Below, one piece after another: positions 25,871 to 63,394 of a stretch of 64,000 nucleotides of DNA (the first letter of the stretch is position 1; every line of letters starts with the position of its first letter). Origin of the DNA: Bacteroidales bacterium. Its GTDB lineage: Bacteria; Bacteroidota; Bacteroidia; Bacteroidales; Paludibacteraceae. The stretch lies in the NCBI GenBank assembly GCA_012837935.1, contig DUQG01000045.1, forward strand, positions 42,989-106,988. The letters are read 5' to 3'. Position numbers and translations under genes: made by a program. A model generated the notes under the pieces. That model saw only the letters and a list, made by a program, of their open reading frames with translations. It did no database searches and had not been told where the DNA came from.

Positions 25871-26041
25871 ATGAAAAAAATTCTATTTCTATTATTTGTA
25901 CTGATCTCGTTTTTTTCTTATTCAGTAGTCAAAGCACAACAGAAGACCATCTATATCACATTGGATGTTTCTAGTAGTATGGGGCAAAAAACAAAACGCA
26001 CAAACGCAAAGCGCACAACTAACACAATAACAAACAGTTAG
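25871..26041 (+). pseudogene. Start of a secreted vWA-domain protein, cut by the prophage
   Basis: The ORF opens with a signal peptide (MKKILFLLFVLISFFSYSVVKAQ), then KTIYITLDVSSSMG, which is the first strand and DxSxS metal site of a von Willebrand A domain. After GQ the protein turns into a repetitive basic sequence and stops at 26039-26041. The switch coincides with the only TG dinucleotide close by (25980) and with the A-rich repeats expected of a Mu-type end. The natural reading is that the prophage entered this gene. I do not find the rest of the gene inside the window. Confidence 0.6.
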
Positions 26042-27929: not shown

Positions 27930-29951
27930 ATGGTAGAATATTATAATAACACATTAGTAGTGGAAGCAAGTTGGCTTGTGGACAATGAAATAATGTCTGA
28001 AAGTCAGTACCGACATGCAACCACACGTAAACAAGTTCAAGTTGTACGGCGGGGATGCCTGAACACTCCGGCTCTTGTTGCTTATGATAGTATGCCTGAC
28101 CGTTTTAAGCGGAAAGTGGTAGAGGTTATCGGTAAAAGTCCGTATGAGGTTATAAAGACCAACTACCTGCAAGAACTTATTGAAGATAGAGCGGATATTT
28201 CGGAGTTTTTTGAAAACTACAAACTGACAAATGGCCGATATATCCCGAAAAACACACGCCACGAGTACTATATCAATGCGATAGTATTGGAGGCAGTACA
28301 TATCATGCTGACCGATAAACGTGCAAGACGTTCGGCACTTGGACATAAAACCACAAAGATATGGGAAAAGATAGCTGAGGCAGTTATGGAACTTGACCGG
28401 ATACGTTTCCCGCACTCATTACCGTCCAATCCGAGACGATTGGAAGATAGATACAAACGGTACCGGAAAGAAGGTGCAGTGAGTTTGATACATAAAAATT
28501 TCACAAATAAAAATGCCGCTTCTGTGGATAGCGAAGTAAAAGAGAGCGTATTGGTAGAAATATTAGCCGCACCAAGTAACCTTGACAATGCACAGGTGGC
28601 TAAATTTTACAATATGGTGGCTGAAAAAGCCGGATGGAAAACAATTACTACCGGAACGGTGGCTAATTTCCGTGAAAAGCACGAAACAATGATATATCCG
28701 GGCAGACGTGGCTCAGTGGCATTTATGAATAAAAAGACAATGCAGGTTAAGCGTTCTGCCCCGAGTGCTCCGCTATACTACTGGACGCTTGACGGTTGGG
28801 ATGTGGAGCTTATGTATCAAAAACACGAAGGCAACCGCACAACCTATCATCACAGACCAACGGTTGTGATAGTATTGGATGCTTTTAATAAATACCCGAT
28901 TGGCTATGCCGTAGGAGATAGAGAAAATCCACAATTAATTCAGATGGCGCTACGCAATGCAGCGAAACATACTGAGGAACTATTCGGCAAAATGTATCGG
29001 ACGCACCAAATTCAGAGCGACCGCTACGCTATCAGCATGATGACACCATTCTACGAAACGCTTGCGGATAAAGTAACTCCGGCACGTGCGAAAAATGCAA
29101 AGGCTAAGATTATCGAACCGTATTTCGGGCACTTGAACAAAACCTATTGTCAAATACAACCAAACTGGAGCGGTTTCGGGATTACTTCAGATGCTGAAAA
29201 ACAACCAAACAGCGAGTTTCTTAATACATATAAAAAGAATTTCCCTGACTTTGATGGTGTATGCAAGCAGGTTGAGTTGATTGTATAGGCAGAGCGTATA
29301 CAAAAGGTTGAGCGACTAATGGAAGCTTGGAATGCAATGGCGGAAGATGACAAAATAGAACTTACCTACCAAAATTATTTATTACAGTTTGGCTCGACTA
29401 CCGGACGACCGATTTTAATGCAACACAACGGACTACTTCCAACAATTGAGGGTGTAAAAAGGACGTATGACTGTTTTGATGTGAATTTTCGCAAGCATAG
29501 CTCTGTAAAATGGAATGTGATGTATGACCCGGACGATATGAGCCGTGCGCTGGCGGTTAATGAGGAGCAAACGCTCCAATTCCTACTCGAAGAGAAATAT
29601 GTCCAACCAATGGCATTAAAAGACAGGAAAGAGGGCGACAGCGAGCAACTGCAACGAGTGAGAGAATTTAACCGGGAACTTATACAAGAAGTAACGGAAT
29701 TTAGAGCCGAAACCGCTGAACAAAGCAGAGGCATATTGGAAATGGTACCGGAACTGGAAACGCTGAAAAAGCTGGCGATAACCGACAGCAAAGGTCAGCA
29801 TAAGAATGAGAGAAACAAGGCTCGGTTAGCCCCACCCCAGCCCTCCCCTCACTGGGAGGGTGATGTCGGACAGGAATGTCCGACCCCCGTAAGAGTGGTT
29901 AATCAAGTGCAGGCTGAAATAACGGAAACATCGTATTTGGATAAATTATAA
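27930..29951 (+). pseudogene. MuA-type DDE transposase interrupted by an amber codon
   Basis: The frame spans 673 residues with a TAG at 29286-29288 (codon 453), between KQVELIV and AERIQKVERLM. Before it lie the N-terminal binding region and the DDE core: Asp in YYWTLDGWDVE, Asp in HQIQSDRY and Glu in KAKIIEPYFGHLN. After it comes the Mu C-terminal beta-barrel and domain III, where MuA normally contacts MuB. The core triad is upstream of the stop, so a truncated 452-aa product would keep the catalytic residues but lose assembly functions. Residues near the C-terminus (APPQPSPHWEGDVGQECPTP) are encoded by dispersed palindromes. The leader before the start lacks the common early motif. Confidence 0.88.
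29865..29884. repeat. Palindrome GTCGGACA-GGAA-TGTCCGAC inside MuA
   Basis: A perfect 8-bp stem with a GGAA loop, next to CCTCCC-ctcact-GGGAGG (about 29843-29860). Both sit in frame in the extreme 3' end of the transposase gene. The first has the architecture of the palindrome at 53-72. Confidence 0.7.
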
Positions 29952-52817: not shown

Positions 52818-55800
52818 ATGGAACCGGTTGAAATAGACATAAGGATGAAACAAAACGTGTCGGAAGAGGGCGAAAAAGCTACCGACTCGATAAACAAGAT
52901 GGATGAAGCCGCTCTTCGTGCAGCTACTGACATAAAAGCTAAAATTAAAGAGCAGAAGTCGATTATTAAGCAAATAGAAAGCGACATAGCATATATACAA
53001 AAGCTATACGATCATGCAGTTGCTGGAAAGGCAAAATTGAGTTTAGGTAATGAACTTGAAACTTTGAAGAAAGCATTAGAGGTAGAAAAGAATGCACTTG
53101 TCGAGCTTGAAAGTAAAGTAGAAACGACCGCTCAAAAGCATGCTAAGCTTCGTACAGAGGTGATGGAAGCGAAGGAAGAGGTTTCGCGATTAGAAATGGC
53201 TGGTAAACGTGGTTCGGAAGAGTGGGATATAGCAATAAATAAGCTGGCTAGTTTGAATGATCAAATGCAGGACACCAACCAGATAGCTAAAACCATTGCC
53301 GATGATGAGAGAATTTTTAAATCCGTTGCTTCCGGTGTATCCGGATTAGCGGGAGCTATGAGTGCTGCGGTAGGTGTAGCTTCTCTATTTGGTGCCGAAC
53401 AAGAAGAATTAACAAAAATACAGACCCGTTTACAGTCGGTAATGGCAATTACTATCGGATTACAACAGGTTGCTGAAACACTTAATAAAGACAGTTACTT
53501 CAGGATTGTTTTACTCTCAAAAGCAAAACGGGGTTGGGCCGCCGCACAAGCTTTTCTGAATACACAGTTAGGTATTGGTGTGGGGCTGTCGAAGGCTTTA
53601 ATGTTTTCAGGTGTAGGATTACTTATAGCCGGAATAGGTTCTTTAATTGTCCTGTATCAAAAATGGTCAAAAAAACAGGAGGAAGAGCTAAAGCTTATTC
53701 AGGAGCGACTCCAAGTACAAGCGCAATTAAAAAGAGAAATCGCTGATAGCTACGCATCGGAAGTCTCAAAAATTGAAGCTGCTCGCGCAGCCTTAAATTC
53801 GGAAAATGTAACACGGGAACAAAAACTGGGGATTATAGATAAGTTAAAAAAACAGATACCCGGTTACACGGCGGAGCTCGACACCGAGGGCAGACTAATA
53901 CGAGAAAACACAGAAGCATACAACGACTATCTTGTTTCACTCGAAAAGTCGCTACTATTAAGAGCCGCAGAAAAAGATTTGGAAAAGCTGTTGGCACAAA
54001 AATACCAACTTCAAAAATTTGAAATAAAGGAAGAGCCAAAACCAATATTTAATGGGTATGAAGTTGATTTAACTTCAGGCAATATACCGGAATGGCAAAA
54101 GAATTTCGATAAAGCAGCAAAAGAAGGAATTGCAGAAATCGATAAAGCTATTGAAAGAATAAAAGACTATATTGCTAACAACTCTTTAATTGACATACCC
54201 AAGCCAACAGGAGGGGAACCTCCTTCTACTATCAAAAAAGAATATGACGCCCAAGCCGAACTTGCCAAGCAACTAACTGATTTGCGGAAACGTATCGCTG
54301 AATTGGAAATAGAAACCATGCAGGAGGGTTTTAAAAAGAAAATAGCACAAATCGACCATGAGGAGGAAACCGAGCTAAAACGGATTGAGGATTATCAGAA
54401 AAAATAGTTGAAACCTACAATAAGGATAAAGATGAAAAGAACAAAGTAAAAGATATAAAAGATATTCCCGGTATCAAACCTGAAACGCTTGCGGAAATAG
54501 AAGCAGAAAAAAGCAAAATATCTGCTGTGGCAGAAGAAAAACGCAAACAAGCGACAGTCAACAACGCCAAAGAGATAGCGGAACTGGCTCGGAAGTATGC
54601 AAGTGAACAAGTAAAAATCGAGCATGATTACCAGCAGGATATTGATAAACTGACCGCTGCCGGAAATCTGGAAGCTGCGAATGCGGCAAAAGCTGAACGA
54701 GATAAACGCATTTCGGAACTAACGGCGGAAATGATTGAAAGCAGCTCTATCTACAAGCTGGCAACCGACGAGAAAATACAAGCATCCAAGAAAGCAACCG
54801 AAGAACTGGTGTCCGACATCAAAAAACGGATAGAACTGCTCGTAAAGGAAAACAAACTGACACGTGAAGCAGCAGACCAGATGCTGAAAGATATTGATAA
54901 AACGCAGGTTTCTCGAGAAAACAGCAAAAACGAAAACAATCCTTTCGCTAAACTACTGAGCGGACTAAATAAGTACAAAGGGGCAAAAAAGGAGCTTGAT
55001 GATAAACGAGGCAGCACATCTGCGGAGGACTTGGTAAAGCTGGAAGACACAGCTAACAAGGCGCTAAAATCCACAGCCGAAGCATCCGCCGAAGCATTGA
55101 TGGGCGTGCAGGCTATTCTCGGCTCGGTAGTTGGTGCGCTTGACCAATTGGGTGCGCTAACCGAAGAGGAAAAACAAACCGCCAACGAAGTGATTGGCAT
55201 GGTAGGCGGAGCAGCAGAGCTGGCGCAAGGTATTGCAACCGGTAACCCAATCGGAATTATTACCGGAGCAGTTAATCTACTTTCAAATGCTATTTCTTTT
55301 TTCGACTTTAAAAGCAAAAAAATTGCCAAACAGCAGAAGGAGCACAAAAAAAACTTGGAGGAGCTAAGCAGAGCGTATAACAATCTACAGCGTGAAGTTG
55401 ATAAGGCTCTCGGTACGGATGTTTACAAAAAACAGAAAGAAGCGATCAATAATCTACAGAAGCAGATAGCCGAAAACGAGCGACTGATTGCACTTGAAAA
55501 TCAGAAAAAGAAAAAGAAACGAGACAAGGAAGCTATTGCCGCATGGAATGCGGAAATTGATGCACTGAAAGGCGAAGTTAACGATACCATTCAGTCCATT
55601 GTCGAGGACTTGGCGCAGACCAACGCCAAAACCTTAGCACAGCAACTGGCGGATGCGCTGGTAGATGCAGCTCGCACCGGAGAAGACGCTTTCACTGCGA
55701 TGGGAGATGTGGTTAATGATGTGCTGCGCAATGCGGTTGTAAATTCACTATCTAAAAAGTTTTTGGAAAAACAGATGGGCGATGCGGTTGAGTACCTTGC

Positions 55801-57572: not shown

Positions 57573-58159
57573 TGGCAAAAAAAGATTTAGGAAAAATAGC
57601 AATCACTCCGAGAGGTGAGTGGGTGCAAGGTACAGAGTATGAAAGACTCGATGTTGTAAAAGCAAACGGCGGAAGTTATCTATCGTTAGTAGATAATAAT
57701 AGTGCTGAGTTGGCAGATGAGACGGCTTGGATGGTATTAGCTGAAAGAGGATTACAAGGTGGTAAGATGGAATATTCGGATTTGACAGACGAGGATAAAG
57801 ATGACTTGGTAAGTCATACAGAAAAACCACTTATAAATGAAAATCCTATTGAATTACCTTTTAGAGTTGGAACGCGAAATGGTGAAATAGGTCAATTAAA
57901 ATGTCAAGCAATAAGGATTGGTAGTCAATACAATGGCGTATCTGACACCTACAAATTTGAAAGATCTGTACACATTATTACCGTTATTGGTGTTCAGTTT
58001 GATTTAACTGAAGAAATTCCATTTAAATTAATTAACCCTTCAGACGTAATTATTGAAAATGATGAAAATTATAATACTCAAATAAGGCTTGTTAAATATG
58101 TTTCAACATATTTAATTGTTTTCTATGTAGAAACAGGAGATTTTCTTTTGTCATGTTAA
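57572..58159 (+). CDS. Tail fibre/carbohydrate-binding protein
   Basis: A 195-aa protein. Residues 8-55 (ITPRGEWVQGTEYERLDVVKANGGSYLSLVDNNS) look like the carbohydrate-binding modules (CBM5/12-like) found in phage fibres. C-terminal half (NGEIGQLKCQAIRIGSQYNGVSDTYKF...) is a beta domain of unknown type. It shares the last base of the previous ORF (ATG in TAATG) and overlaps the sialyltransferase homologue by 7 bp. Confidence 0.6.
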   Translation: MAKKDLGKIAITPRGEWVQGTEYERLDVVKANGGSYLSLVDNNSAELADETAWMVLAERGLQGGKMEYSDLTDEDKDDLVSHTEKPLINENPIELPFRVGTRNGEIGQLKCQAIRIGSQYNGVSDTYKFERSVHIITVIGVQFDLTEEIPFKLINPSDVIIENDENYNTQIRLVKYVSTYLIVFYVETGDFLLSC

Positions 58160-58773
58160 ACATAGCTATCATCGGCAATGGCTGTAACACTAAAAAGTAC
58201 GGCAGCTTCATTGATAGTTTCGATGAGGTTGTTCGTATTAATGGTGGTGCGATGGAGAGAGCCATTTCAGAAAACAGCGAATATGTCGGAACAAAAACAA
58301 CGCTTGCCGTTTTCAACAATTGGAATTTCAAAACAGATATTCCTACACATCCGGATGTGCTCGAAGCGCATAAGTATGCAATAGAAAATAATATACCGAT
58401 AGCATATTCTCGTAAAAACATCATTATCCGAAAAGGTAATGAACTAAAAAACGGAATACCTATCGAATATCTGGATAAAGTGCCTAAGCAAACAATATTC
58501 GGGATAACTAAGGATTTATATGATTACATAGAACAACTATACGATTACAAGCATCCGACTTCGGGGTTGAAAATTTTGTTTTATTTTCTCAAACAAGGCT
58601 ATAGAGATATTGCATTGTTTAATTTTGGATTTACAGGAGTACATTTTTTTGACAAGAAATGGCATGATGTTATGACCGATAAGCGATTTGAAGCTCATTA
58701 TCACAACGGAAAAATAGAGCGTGATATTATTGAAGATTTACAAAGGAAAGTATTAGTGAAAATTTATGAATAA
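58153..58773 (+). CDS. GT29-like sialyltransferase homologue
   Basis: A 206-aa protein. IAIIGNGCNTKKYG and SFIDSFDEVVRINGG match the long sialyl motif of GT29 (GNGxxL...IDxxDxVxRxN), HPTSGLKILFYFLKQGYRDIALFNFGF matches the short motif, and HYHNGKIERD has the His/Glu pattern of the last one. A sialyltransferase transfers a nonulosonate from the CMP-sugar. The next gene would make the CMP-sugar. No signal or anchor is seen, so a cytoplasmic reaction is expected. The substrate may be the host's surface glycan or a phage protein. It overlaps the previous gene by 7 bp and the next by 8 bp. Confidence 0.75.
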   Translation: MLNIAIIGNGCNTKKYGSFIDSFDEVVRINGGAMERAISENSEYVGTKTTLAVFNNWNFKTDIPTHPDVLEAHKYAIENNIPIAYSRKNIIIRKGNELKNGIPIEYLDKVPKQTIFGITKDLYDYIEQLYDYKHPTSGLKILFYFLKQGYRDIALFNFGFTGVHFFDKKWHDVMTDKRFEAHYHNGKIERDIIEDLQRKVLVKIYE

Positions 58774-59413
58774 CACACTTGTAATTATACCTGCTAAAGT
58801 TCACAGCGAAAGGGTGCTAAATAAGAATATGCGGCATATTGACGGCATTCCACTATTTGTACATTCCATTAATTACGCAAAACAGGAAGGTTTCAAGCAC
58901 ATCGCCGTGAGTAGCGATGGCGAGCATATTTTGAAGATAGCTAAAAGTTTAGGTTGCATTCCGGTTAAAGAAAACGTAAATGAAAGTAAATTGGAGTACT
59001 GTGTTAATCAGGTATTGGCACAAGAAAAAGGCTATAGGTATTTTGCACTTCTACAACCCACATCTCCACTTCGAGAAAAAGACAAACTGAAATCTATGCT
59101 CGCAAGAATGAAAAACGAGGAGTTGGAAACACTTCTTACCTGTCAGCAGATAAAGCCTGTAGCGTGGCTTGACCAGTACTGCTTGTTTGACGTTCAAAAT
59201 AGACCATTAAGTCAGCAAGCTAAAAGTTGGATATATCACTTTGATGGCAATATCTTGTTGCGTAATATTGAAAGTTATAAGAAAGAACAAATACTTATTC
59301 CGCAGGTGTCAGGAATAGAAGTAAATGCGTTTCCATATTACTTGCAAATAGACACCATAGAGGAATTTAATCAGATTAAAATGTATGTTGAAAAAAATAC
59401 TGAAAAAAGATAA
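58766..59413 (+). CDS. CMP-nonulosonic acid cytidylyltransferase (NeuA-like)
   Basis: A 215-aa nucleotidyltransferase. It opens VIIPAKVHSERVLNKNMRHIDGIPLFVHSI, close to the family's IPARxGSKRIxxKN pattern, though GS is replaced by VHS. LLQPTSPLREKDKL is the hallmark of NeuA enzymes, and YYLQIDTIEEFNQI matches the DIDTxEDL segment. It would activate a nonulosonate with CTP. No sialate synthase (NeuB) gene is nearby, so the sugar must come from the host. It overlaps the sialyltransferase homologue by 8 bp. Confidence 0.82.
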   Translation: MNNTLVIIPAKVHSERVLNKNMRHIDGIPLFVHSINYAKQEGFKHIAVSSDGEHILKIAKSLGCIPVKENVNESKLEYCVNQVLAQEKGYRYFALLQPTSPLREKDKLKSMLARMKNEELETLLTCQQIKPVAWLDQYCLFDVQNRPLSQQAKSWIYHFDGNILLRNIESYKKEQILIPQVSGIEVNAFPYYLQIDTIEEFNQIKMYVEKNTEKR

Positions 59414-59623: not shown

Positions 59624-60100
59624 ATGAAAGAAATTTATACAGCATTAATAAACAGAATAAAAGAGGAGGTTCCTGCTATTAAATGGATAGACTGGGACAC
59701 AGGACAGTTGGATGGCTACACAATCATAAAAGGAGATGTTCATCGTCCGCCACTTAAGTATCCGGCAGCACTTATCACTATCGGAGTTAATTCCGCTAAA
59801 GATATTGTGGACACAATCCAAGACTGTGTGGTTCATATCAGCATACGCTTAGCGTTTGAACCTATGGAACGGACAAATTCCGAAGCCACGCCGGAAGTGC
59901 GAGACTCGGCGTTACAACCCTACGATGTTATAGATAATCTGTATGCAGCACTACAAGGATATGAAACTGAAAATTTTCACAGCTTATCACGCATGAGCCA
60001 AGGAAAAGAAAACAGCCACAATGGGCTGTTTATCTATCGCATGAATTTTAAAACTGATTTTGAGGATTACGGGGCAGATTCCTCACAAAAGGGAATATAA
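59624..60100 (+). CDS. Tail terminator-like protein
   Basis: A 158-aa protein (MKEIYTALINRIKEEVPAIKWIDWDTGQLDGYTIIKGDVHRPPLKYPAALITIGVNS). This pattern and the C-terminal DFEDYGADSSQ are like phage tail terminator/minor tail proteins. I start at 59624 because ORF residues before it are GC-rich, uninformative and out of place. It is the last structural gene before the structured element. Confidence 0.6.
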   Translation: MKEIYTALINRIKEEVPAIKWIDWDTGQLDGYTIIKGDVHRPPLKYPAALITIGVNSAKDIVDTIQDCVVHISIRLAFEPMERTNSEATPEVRDSALQPYDVIDNLYAALQGYETENFHSLSRMSQGKENSHNGLFIYRMNFKTDFEDYGADSSQKGI

Positions 60101-60114
60101 AAAAGCCCCCGGTC

Positions 60115-60230
60115 ACAGTTGGCTCTCTGACCTTCCAACTGTATAAAATGCGAATAGCCGCATACCCGAAGAGCTTAGTAATAAGTTCCGAGTGGTGCGG
60201 CTATTCGCATTTTAAATAAGTGTCAGAGAG
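60115..60230 (+). ncRNA. Structured RNA element with predicted pseudoknot
   Basis: A stem ACAGTTGG/CCAACTGT (60115-60122, 60135-60142) holds in its loop CTCTCTGAC (60123-60131). This is a perfect complement of GTCAGAGAG (60222-60230). Between lie the 18-bp perfect stem AAAATGCGAATAGCCGCA/TGCGGCTATTCGCATTTT (60145-60162, 60196-60213) and, inside its loop, GAGCTTA-GTAA-TAAGTTC (one G-U). The element is in a 186-bp non-coding gap, 56 nt before the 42-aa ORF that heads the modification operon. It resembles a regulatory RNA or processed leader. Confidence 0.7.
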
Positions 60231-60286
60231 ACAACAAAATTACAAATATAAACCTAAAAACCAAACATTAAATTAAATAATTTATT

Positions 60287-60415
60287 ATGAGCAAATTTAC
60301 TTATAAGGAACAACATGCTGTTATCGTGAAGTGTAGTAACGAGGACGAACAAAGAAAAACTTTTGAAGAGTTAAAGAAAATGGGGTATAAAGATTTAAAA
60401 TTAGTATCAGTATGA
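60287..60415 (+). CDS. 42-aa ORF overlapping the ABC-GNAT gene
   Basis: Not in the ORF track. MSKFTYKEQHAVIVKCSNEDEQRKTFEELKKMGYKDLKLVSV ends at TGA overlapping the ATG of the next gene (ATGA, 60412-60415). It has a single Cys and is not a zinc finger like Mu Com, but it occupies Com's place in front of a Mom-like gene and may couple its translation. The amphipathic pattern FEELKKMGYKDLKLV is sound for a small protein. Confidence 0.6.
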   Translation: MSKFTYKEQHAVIVKCSNEDEQRKTFEELKKMGYKDLKLVSV

Positions 60416-61545
60416 AAATTGAAATCAAGCACGAAACAAAAAACTTCGACAGCTTTCGTGCTAATAAGGTGAAAAGCCTTTTTAATCCTGAGCACGGTAA
60501 CTGGGAACACGTGGCAGACCTGCCTATTGAAAACAACGACTGGAAAATCGGGTTAATAGTTGGCCCGAGTGGCTCTGGTAAAACAAGTATCGGTAATCGT
60601 ATTTTTGGGCGCATCCACGACCTTTATGCTGACTGGGATAGTGACAAGGCTATTGTTGATTGTATCGCACCGGAAAAGACACTAAATGAAGTTACAGCCG
60701 CACTTTCGGCTGTAGGTTTAGGAGATGTTCCCGCGTGGCTACGCCCTTTTAATGTTTTAAGTAACGGTGAGAAGTTCCGGGCAGGACTGGCGCGCTTGGT
60801 AGTTGAGCGTCCGGATAAGGTGGTAGTTGACGAATTTACAAGCGTAATCGACCGACAAATCGCCAAAGTTGGCGCGGCAGCTTTTGCAAAATCATGGAAA
60901 AGAGGATCAGGACAAGTTATTTTGCTATCCTGCCATTACGATATTATTGAGTGGCTCCAGCCTGACTGGATATATGATACAGCGGAGGCACGGTTTAGCC
61001 GTGACTGCCTTCGGCAACGCCCACAACTCGAACTTCAAATTTATCAAGTCAGCGGAAGTGTATTCAGGCATTTTAAGCCGCATTATTATTTAGACTTACC
61101 ACTACCGGTGGCGGGAATGTACTACGTGGGTATTATAGACGGCGAGCCGGTTTGTCACTTGGCAGTGTCGCCACTATTTACCGCTAAGGCGTACAGAGCT
61201 ACCCGACTGGTAGTAATGCCGGAGTGGCAAGGGATAGGCGTTGGCACTAAATTTCTGAATGCCATTTGCCAGTATCACCTTGACGGGTACGGTCGCGGTG
61301 GGTACAAATACCATACGTTTTTCCATACTTCGCACCCACAACTCTGTGGAGCATTACGCCACTCTCGAAAATGGATACAAACAGGTGCACGCCTTTACGG
61401 TGATAATAAAGCCAGAAGCGCCAAATCCCTTAAAAAATCGCATTTGAAAAACGGAATTAAAAACAGATGCTCTACCGGATACGGTGGGCACTTTCGAGCC
61501 GTACAAGCTTTTAAATATATAGGAGAAAACAGCAATGAAAATTAG
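60412..61545 (+). CDS. ABC ATPase fused to a GNAT-type acyltransferase domain
   Basis: A 377-aa fusion. Residues about 1-190 form an ABC ATPase: Walker A IVGPSGSGKTS, signature LSNGEKFRAGLARLV, Walker B KVVVDEFTSVIDRQ, H-loop LLSCHYDI. Residues about 200-350 look like a GNAT acyltransferase: GIIDGEPVCHLAVSPLF, RATRLVVMPEWQGIGVGTKFLNAI with the acyl-CoA pyrophosphate loop Q-G-I-G-V-G. This is the COG2401-like combination seen in archaea and phages, function unknown. Mu Mom is also a GNAT-type DNA modifier. Overlaps its neighbours on both sides. Confidence 0.8.
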   Translation: MKIEIKHETKNFDSFRANKVKSLFNPEHGNWEHVADLPIENNDWKIGLIVGPSGSGKTSIGNRIFGRIHDLYADWDSDKAIVDCIAPEKTLNEVTAALSAVGLGDVPAWLRPFNVLSNGEKFRAGLARLVVERPDKVVVDEFTSVIDRQIAKVGAAAFAKSWKRGSGQVILLSCHYDIIEWLQPDWIYDTAEARFSRDCLRQRPQLELQIYQVSGSVFRHFKPHYYLDLPLPVAGMYYVGIIDGEPVCHLAVSPLFTAKAYRATRLVVMPEWQGIGVGTKFLNAICQYHLDGYGRGGYKYHTFFHTSHPQLCGALRHSRKWIQTGARLYGDNKARSAKSLKKSHLKNGIKNRCSTGYGGHFRAVQAFKYIGENSNEN

Positions 61546-62026
61546 AATTTTAGGAAATAAAGAGACGGAGGCATTTAAGAGGGCTGAGCGGCTTGTTAGG
61601 TCGCTCGCCCATGTGACGGAGTTTGAAGGCGTAGCGGATTTGGCAATTGCGCCGTTATTGACCGAAATATTAACGGTTGAGGAATTACAAGAGCCATGGC
61701 TTGGTACGCTTATTTTTCACCCATCTCCACTCCCATACGGGCGTGGAGCCGCATCAATTAAATGGGCGTACAGGCGTAAGGAACCAATAACAGCGGCGAC
61801 TTGGTTCTGGGCTGATGCTGAGCTTGATACCGGAGCAATCTGCGAGCAGGAGATAATTAAAATAGACTACTCGAAACGCCCGCGTGAGTTCTATGAGGCT
61901 GATATATTGCCAGCTATGGAACGAACGCTTAAACGGTGTTTATTTGCTCTTAAAATGGGGTTTAAAAGAGAGGTGCCACAGGTGGAAGAGTATGCGAGCT
62001 TTGATAGGAAGGAGGGTAAAATATGA
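61535..62026 (+). CDS. Formyltransferase-fold protein
   Basis: A 163-aa protein related to methionyl-tRNA/GAR-type formyltransferases: TLIFHPSPLPYGRGAASIKWAYRRKEPITAATWFWADAELDTGAI contains the HPSxLP and LDTG motifs. The Asn two residues before the catalytic His in FMT is Ile here (LIFHPS), and the tRNA-binding C-domain is missing, so the reaction may differ. It overlaps ABC-GNAT by 11 bp and Dam by 4 bp. Transfer of a one-carbon or acyl group to DNA is suggested by context only. Confidence 0.72.
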   Translation: MKIRILGNKETEAFKRAERLVRSLAHVTEFEGVADLAIAPLLTEILTVEELQEPWLGTLIFHPSPLPYGRGAASIKWAYRRKEPITAATWFWADAELDTGAICEQEIIKIDYSKRPREFYEADILPAMERTLKRCLFALKMGFKREVPQVEEYASFDRKEGKI

Positions 62027-62796
62027 AAACCCCACTTGTCTATTATGGTGGTAAACAAACAATGCTAAAACATATCCTTCCACTCATCCCGGAACATTCG
62101 ATTTATACCGAAGCGTACGCCGGGGGGTGTGCCGTGCTTTTTGCAAAGACGCCGAGCAAAGTAGAAGTTATCAACGATTTGAACGGCGAGCTGATAAACT
62201 TTTATCGCATTTGCCAATTGCAGCCTGAAGCATTGCAACGGGAAATAAAAACATCTCTTCACGCCAGGGAATTGAACGAACACGCTTTGCATATTTACCG
62301 ACATCCGGTATTTTTTAATCCTGTACAAAGAGCGTGGGCGGTGTGGTTTTCCCTTAAAACCAGTTTCTCTGCTCAAATTTCTGGCGGCTTTAGTTATGAC
62401 AGGCATGGAAAGAAACCTACTGCACTCCAAACAGCCGTAAACAGATTTGATGATGCTATAATTGAGCGAGTGAAACAAATTACCATTGAGCAAAACGAAG
62501 CCACGAAAATCATACGGATTTATGACACACCGGATACTTTTCACTTTATAGACCCGCCATATGTGGATTGCAATCAAGGTCATTACAATGGGATGTTCAA
62601 CCATCAGTCGCTTGTAGAGTTGTTGGAGCTATGTAGTAGCTTGCAGGGTAAATTTATGCTGACTATGTATCCTAATGATGTAATCCAATCATTCGCAGAT
62701 AAATATCATTGGACTATTCACGAAGTAAACCGAACCGTTACAGCTGCCAAAACCACACGCAGGAAACAAGTTGAATGGATGGTATGTAATTATTAA
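62023..62796 (+). CDS. D12-class DNA adenine methyltransferase (Dam-like)
   Basis: A 257-aa N6-adenine methylase. It has the AdoMet motif YTEAYAGGCAVLF, the opening LVYYGGKQTMLKHILPLIPEH and the catalytic FIDPPYVDCNQGHY (DPPY). This is the alpha-class (Dam) order. No cognate restriction enzyme is adjacent, so it is an orphan or part of a protection cassette. It overlaps the formyltransferase by 4 bp (ATGA) and is followed by a terminator at 62815. It could methylate phage DNA or prepare adenines for further modification. Confidence 0.88.
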   Translation: MKTPLVYYGGKQTMLKHILPLIPEHSIYTEAYAGGCAVLFAKTPSKVEVINDLNGELINFYRICQLQPEALQREIKTSLHARELNEHALHIYRHPVFFNPVQRAWAVWFSLKTSFSAQISGGFSYDRHGKKPTALQTAVNRFDDAIIERVKQITIEQNEATKIIRIYDTPDTFHFIDPPYVDCNQGHYNGMFNHQSLVELLELCSSLQGKFMLTMYPNDVIQSFADKYHWTIHEVNRTVTAAKTTRRKQVEWMVCNY

Positions 62797-62914: not shown

Positions 62915-63394
62915 ATGATTGAAGTTTTTTACGAAAGACCAATGCATACGTGTCTTGCAAAAAAGGATTACATGGAGTTACTGGACTATTACAAGGATGC
63001 ATCTTCAGTCAACTTATTGACACCAATCATGTATTTATACATGGGCTTATATTATTATGAGCAAAAAGATTATGTTACAGCTTATTATTATGCCTATAAT
63101 ATTGATTTCCAAAAAATGCCCAAACATCAAGAGTTGGTGATTATTTTTAAGTTGAATTGCATATTTCATTTAATCAAAAACAACAGTCGAAAAGAATATA
63201 GAAAATCCAGGTATTTGTTATTTGACTCGTGGATTATTAGCGACTATATTGAATTTTTGAACATTCCGAGTAAACACATTTACCACTACTATAGTTTAAT
63301 CGATAAAATTCAGGAAGATTTGGAAAAGAACAAAGTTCTTACATATACAGACTATGAGTTGTATGATGTGAGAGAATTGTTGATTGCGGAATAA
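62915..63394 (+). CDS. Orphan AT-rich protein, unknown
   Basis: A 159-aa protein. I start at MIEVFYERPMHTC because the promoter box is at 62845; the ORF-track start (62771) overlaps Dam and the terminator. Tyr- and Leu-rich helices (YMELLDYYKDASSVNLLTPIMYLYMGLYYYEQKDYVTAYYYAYNIDF) recall TPR-like pairs. The base composition is more AT-rich than the phage genes next to it, as in morons. It may be the last prophage gene or a host gene beside the right end. Confidence 0.6.
   Translation: MIEVFYERPMHTCLAKKDYMELLDYYKDASSVNLLTPIMYLYMGLYYYEQKDYVTAYYYAYNIDFQKMPKHQELVIIFKLNCIFHLIKNNSRKEYRKSRYLLFDSWIISDYIEFLNIPSKHIYHYYSLIDKIQEDLEKNKVLTYTDYELYDVRELLIAE

Follow-up and report, generated by a model that had tools for sequence, protein, structure and literature searches.

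A candidate DNA-modification cassette and a divergent structured RNA at the right end of a Mu-like Bacteroidales prophage

Phage Mu carries at its right end, after the tail genes, a GNAT-fold modifier (Mom, PF25680) with a dedicated regulator ahead of it (Com, PF10122). Cis-antisense RNAs, such as those of plasmid copy control and IS10 RNA-OUT, are short, stable, structured molecules made from the opposite strand of a leader. A fusion of an ABC ATPase with a GNAT acyltransferase was predicted by Iyer et al. to acylate a DNA base (as cited in PMC7824862). Among formyl-transferring enzymes, 10-formyl-tetrahydrofolate dehydrogenase (FDH) hands its formyl group to a phosphopantetheine thiol, and HypX has been proposed to hand it to CoA, giving formyl-CoA (PMC6802093).

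The locus described here lies in a 64,000-nucleotide stretch (the window) of contig DUQG01000045.1 from a Bacteroidales bacterium. The preliminary description of this DNA placed four tightly overlapping genes at the right end of a Mu-like phage, and both points stand: the same ORFs were recovered, with successive overlaps of ATGA, 11 bp and ATGA by their coordinates, and the prophage contains MuA and MuB with its head and tail genes in the order of the annotated Porphyromonas gingivalis phage008a. In phage008a the cassette is the last item before the right end and stops 168 bp short of the end of the phage record; in the window it too occupies the right end, after the tail genes, as com-mom does in Mu. 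(Pfam Mu-transpos_C was dropped as a marker of Mu-like phages because its sensitivity was too low.) The prophage and the four genes are:

25980-62906, plus strand: Mu-like prophage, ends approximate
60287-60415, plus strand: ORF42, 42 aa; phrog_28816
60412-61545, plus strand: ABC-GNAT, an ABC ATPase fused to a GNAT acyltransferase
61535-62026, plus strand: FT, formyltransferase-fold protein of the 10-formyl-THF dehydrogenase hydrolase type
62023-62796, plus strand: Dam/D12 adenine methyltransferase with a DPPY motif, accessory in the cassette

The MuA gene (27930-29951) has an in-frame TAG at 29286-29288, so, barring a sequencing error, the prophage is probably transposition-defective, and the tape-measure ORF shifts frame at a run of six A (54399-54407), whether by programmed frameshift, decay or assembly error. 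In the tail region (58153-59413) lie a sialyltransferase-like (GT29) gene and a gene resembling pseudaminic acid/CMP-sugar cytidylyltransferases, both unusual for phage tails. The prophage seems to be inserted in a von Willebrand A-like host gene, whose interrupted start (..TLDVSSSMG), at 25900-25990, resembles that domain; the ORF past the right end (62915-63394) is probably the other half of the same gene.

A tblastn search with ABC-GNAT matched 78 phage records (including Tenacibaculum phage pT24, the example of an ABC ATPase-GNAT given in PMC7824862), and 160 more loci were taken from viral contigs and genomes, with profiles iterated over their six-frame ORFs. The loci sampled are the closest ABC-GNAT relatives (about 49% identity and up), and the counts that follow describe this subgroup rather than all ABC-GNATs. 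ORF42 lies immediately 5' of ABC-GNAT in 156 of 163 loci, FT lies immediately 3' of it in all but about 13 of the 141 loci with enough downstream sequence (exceptions to the ORF-based tally were read case by case), and the order ORF42, ABC-GNAT, FT is kept across phyla. Dam, which had been taken for a built-in step, is part of the cassette in just two of the loci sampled, the window and L145, and is an occasional add-on outside the conserved core. The protein is a regular member of the Dam/D12 family (MethyltransfD12, E=3e-22; PF02086 with DPPY), and its relatives directly follow the structured RNA described below in other phages.

ABC-GNAT combines an ABC ATPase and a GNAT domain within one protein with motifs intact (Pfam ABC_tran plus GNAT; phrog_11143, E=4e-141), which makes it a member of the ABC ATPase-GNAT family; the CoA motif QxxGxG of the GNAT domain is present in 160 of 167 sequences. 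The predicted structure of this domain is of good quality (pLDDT 82) and its fold matches are GNATs, with Mom at rank 44 only, so that by fold comparison the domain is no closer to Mom than to other GNATs. A Pfam search gave no match to Mom (PF25680) in the window protein, and a match in locus L287. The GNAT does not belong to the Mom family. The likely acyl-type modification of DNA proposed earlier, with adenine as a possible target, agrees with the role that Iyer et al. had already predicted for ABC-GNAT (cited in PMC7824862). The cassette might instead acylate a host protein or nucleotide in the course of host takeover, as GNAT targets are often proteins or small molecules and the best solved-structure matches of the domain are enzymes of that kind. 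This we hold to be quite improbable: the position and the front ends of the cassette (Com, or the putative sRNA) are the same as for Mom and for DNA methylases, and the ParB-like partners that carry the ORF42 domain adjoin terminase or methylase genes.

The 163-aa FT protein matches Pfam Formyl_trans_N (E=6e-12), and the profile of its family matches the FDH hydrolase domain at E=2e-35, Met-tRNA formyltransferase at 1e-21 and HypX at 4e-12. H62, S64 and D98 are invariant in the phage family, and the Asn of the amine formyltransferases is absent from all 136 FTs with the motif, leaving the His-x-Ser plus Asp triad without Asn at the N-x-H position, as in a formyltransferase of the FDH-hydrolase type; what had been singled out as an altered catalytic Asn in the window protein is thus a trait of the whole family. 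The match to the FDH hydrolase domain suggests that FT supplies formyl-CoA to the adjacent CoA-type GNAT, which is the simplest reading. Formyl-CoA is not the donor for every ABC-GNAT, since about 12 of the 141 loci lack FT. Within the same module the two enzymes may also act in the reverse order, the GNAT first adding an amino-acyl group of the glycyl-like kind suggested for Mom, and FT then formylating the free amine of that group from 10-formyl-THF. Most known formyltransferase-fold enzymes do formylate amines, and FT has a gene of its own that some loci have lost, as would fit an optional late step; we nevertheless regard this order as unlikely, given that the nearest family is by far the FDH hydrolase, followed by others that include the thiol-acting HypX, and that the Asn of the amine formyltransferases is consistently missing.

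A Com-like nature of the 42-aa ORF is not supported. It is a free-standing version of a domain that other phages carry at the C-terminus of ParB-like proteins: in many loci without Com the domain sits there, and the ParB-ORF42 fusions adjoin terminase or methylase genes. From its occurrence on ParB-like C-termini, ORF42 is probably no Com but a docking or targeting domain that has become detached. Domain and profile searches for Com (PF10122) found none in the window, and it lies directly upstream of the cassette in about 50 of 161 loci, in proteobacterial phages. Pseudomonas phage Komp_PAO1_1 is an example, with Com (L001:4683-4931; PF10122, E=9e-21) directly ahead of the cassette, where the deposited annotation uses another frame and misses it. 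A census of 80 Com loci, many of them closely related and classed by motif so that the numbers are not independent, showed that Com heads N6_N4 methylases in 54, D12 in 13, C5 in 2, ABC-GNAT in 2, Mom in 1, other genes in 5 and a contig end in 3. Com stands ahead of the cassette, of methylases and of Mom, and thus serves these phages as a general front end for modification genes. The com-mom parallel drawn in the preliminary description is partly right. It holds for the right-end position and for the cassette behind a genuine Com in Komp_PAO1_1 and some 50 loci; the window itself has neither Com nor Mom, and a role of its RNA like that of Com's target is not supported.

The cassette loci of Bacteroidota have no Com, and a structured RNA is found there instead. 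The pseudoknot-forming non-coding element reported earlier upstream of ORF42 was recovered, with a folding z-score against shuffled sequence of -9.3 on the plus strand and -7.9 on the minus strand, and its architecture recurs with other sequence in dozens of loci. Its parts, all read on the minus strand, are:

60098-60231, minus strand: putative sRNA gene of about 135 nt, proposed from fold, pseudoknot and promoter box, with transcription inferred
60222-60230, minus strand: 5' arm of the sRNA, pairing with the P1 loop
about 60145-60213, minus strand: long hairpin P2, next after the 5' arm
60115-60142 (loop 60123-60134), minus strand: hairpin P1, forming the pseudoknot through pairing between its loop and the 5' arm
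GGGGGCTTTTTT, minus strand: 3' end of the sRNA, 3' of P1
60235-60242, minus strand: -7 box TAATTTTG of the sRNA promoter (Bacteroidota consensus TAnnTTTG)
60262-60265, minus strand: -33 box TTTG, 19 nt from the -7 box

The order on the minus strand (5' arm, P2, P1, then a G-rich stretch and a U-run) is constant among Bacteroidota loci while the sequence varies. A score of 30 or more for P1 with the pseudoknot was reached by 36 of 40 sequences and by 19 of 200 block shuffles, which keep block composition but not dinucleotides and went through the same optimising search as the real sequences; 37 distinct P1 stems occur, and compensatory changes affect 7 of the 17 pairs of P2. On the RNA strand, TAnnTTTG stands at the 5' end of the sRNA in 58 of 62 distinct loci and at the other end in none of the 62 (3.9% in shuffles), and the -33 box is clear in few relatives. 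No Rfam family matched the element above its gathering threshold.

For this element we favour a minus-strand sRNA of about 135 nt over a pseudoknotted plus-strand leader controlling ORF42 translation. Promoter box, G-rich stretch and U-run all suit the minus strand, and the structure stops about 50-52 nt ahead of the ORF42 start codon; the same divergent placement speaks against the earlier proposal that the RNA controls translation in the manner of Com's target. It is also unlikely, in our estimate, that the element is a mere bidirectional terminator or insulator between the tail operon and a moron gene, devoid of sRNA function. In many loci T-rich sequence comes after P2 on the plus strand, and in 18 of 23 the hairpin there is terminator-like, which would allow part of the element to serve the tail operon; but a terminator has no need of a pseudoknot, the pairing of P1 and of its loop with the 5' arm is kept across the 37 distinct stems, and the promoter box occupies a fixed place on one strand only.

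A covariance model located the RNA ahead of almost every Bacteroidota cassette, also where another gene intervenes, and in none of the 74 other cassette-bearing loci (a second model, R2, was not used, its RNAalifold structure being wrong; P2 is palindromic, and the strand of L168, L170, L173 and L176 was set by hand). The intervening gene encodes an 80-aa HTH protein (L093:5566-5805 and similar) with weak similarity to the Mor/C late activators; in Mu, C activates mom. Of 8 loci that have the HTH gene, 7 carry a plus-strand TAnnTTTG about 33 nt ahead of ORF42; none of the 23 in which RNA and ORF42 are directly adjacent has one between them, and this suggests that cassettes of the direct type are probably transcribed by read-through from the tail operon across the RNA gene.

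Genome searches with strict filters returned hits in 11 of 200 genomes of the family, 15 of 393 of the order and 2 of 395 of the class, and most matches lay in loci without ABC-GNAT (in L201 it is the neighbour). A DNA-modification gene or its remnant adjoins the RNA in 29 of the 33 matches outside the seed set, each of them oriented; beyond the cassette these neighbours are mostly D12/Dam methylases reading away from the RNA (two methylases were checked against Pfam, the other calls being motifs recognised by eye: YYGGK, GQKRRF, DPPY). The exceptions are L172 and L174, in other contexts, L217, at a contig end, and L177, which is probably false and was rejected as a match for want of a pseudoknot. 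L172 and L174 have both promoter box and pseudoknot with no recognised modification gene alongside, L172 adjoining a hybrid two-component-type gene. In L176 a thymidylate-synthase-like gene (1746-2974; PF00303, E=8.5e-19) accompanies a DNA methylase behind the RNA, as also at the right end of L193, and the pair is a possible pyrimidine-hypermodification module.

From this distribution the RNA is best read as a Bacteroidota front end for exchangeable modification genes. A very stable, structured RNA that co-occurs with modification genes of several kinds might also act in trans, for instance as an anti-defence decoy working beside these enzymes rather than on their expression; its constant divergent placement near the first modification gene suggests local control, and a trans-acting role appears improbable. 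Taken together, Com and the RNA suggest that each lineage keeps its own front end at such loci, Com in Proteobacteria and a structured RNA in Bacteroidota, and exchanges the modifying genes that follow.

Gene content, conservation, the Com linkage, RNA structure, the promoter box and the linkage of the RNA to modification genes, all established by sequence analysis, can be joined in one model, to which we give roughly even chances: in a Mu-like Bacteroidota phage, the cassette would be an anti-restriction DNA-modification module at the site where Mu has mom, using a formyl route through FT and GNAT and repressed by the sRNA. FT would transfer formyl from 10-formyl-tetrahydrofolate to a pantetheine thiol, most likely that of CoA, and the GNAT domain would pass the formyl (acyl) group to the exocyclic amine of a DNA base. 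The ABC domain may provide loading or movement on DNA, ORF42 may dock the enzyme (a place that the ParB-ORF42 fusion would fill in other phages), and Dam would contribute ordinary N6-methyladenine. The minus-strand sRNA, made from a host-type promoter and fully complementary to the read-through leader of the late tail operon, would silence the module in the lysogen, and strong late transcription would override it. In this scheme we infer DNA as the target, formyl-CoA, expression of the sRNA and repression by it. The broader proposal, a formyl-based base modification (from formyl-THF through formyl-CoA to the base amine) by FT and ABC-GNAT together with a new RNA family that controls exchangeable modification genes throughout Bacteroidota Mu-like phages as the counterpart of Com in Proteobacteria, is possible but doubtful.

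An orphan, already predicted DNA-acylation enzyme is thereby tied to a likely formyl-donor enzyme and a conserved docking domain, with a concrete mass to seek (+27.995 Da on a nucleoside, for formyl), and the RNA and Com offer search handles for unknown phage DNA modifications. In the open-licence papers that we searched, neither the RNA family nor its link to modification genes nor the FDH type of FT was described.

Set beside the known systems, the window Dam shares PF02086 and DPPY with phage Dam/D12 adenine methylases and shows no notable difference. Like plasmid copy-control RNAs and IS10 RNA-OUT, the putative sRNA is short, stable, structured and opposite to a leader; unlike them it is pseudoknotted, tied to phage modification genes and outside Rfam, its antisense action being putative. 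With com-mom the locus shares the right end after the tail genes and a GNAT-fold modifier with a dedicated regulator ahead, but the window cassette dispenses with Com and Mom and adds an ABC domain and FT, and its RNA is a divergent minus-strand element rather than a translation-inhibition hairpin over the start region. The ABC ATPase-GNAT system of Iyer et al. is alike in protein fusion and predicted role, and the passage on it in PMC7824862 makes no mention of FT, ORF42, Com or sRNA partners. The hydrolase domain of 10-formyl-THF dehydrogenase (ALDH1L1) is the nearest sequence relative of FT, and its catalytic His, Ser and Asp are also invariant in the phage family, with the Asn replaced; in contrast to that domain and to the N-domain of HypX, the phage FT is stand-alone, short and phage-borne, and adjoins an acyltransferase gene.
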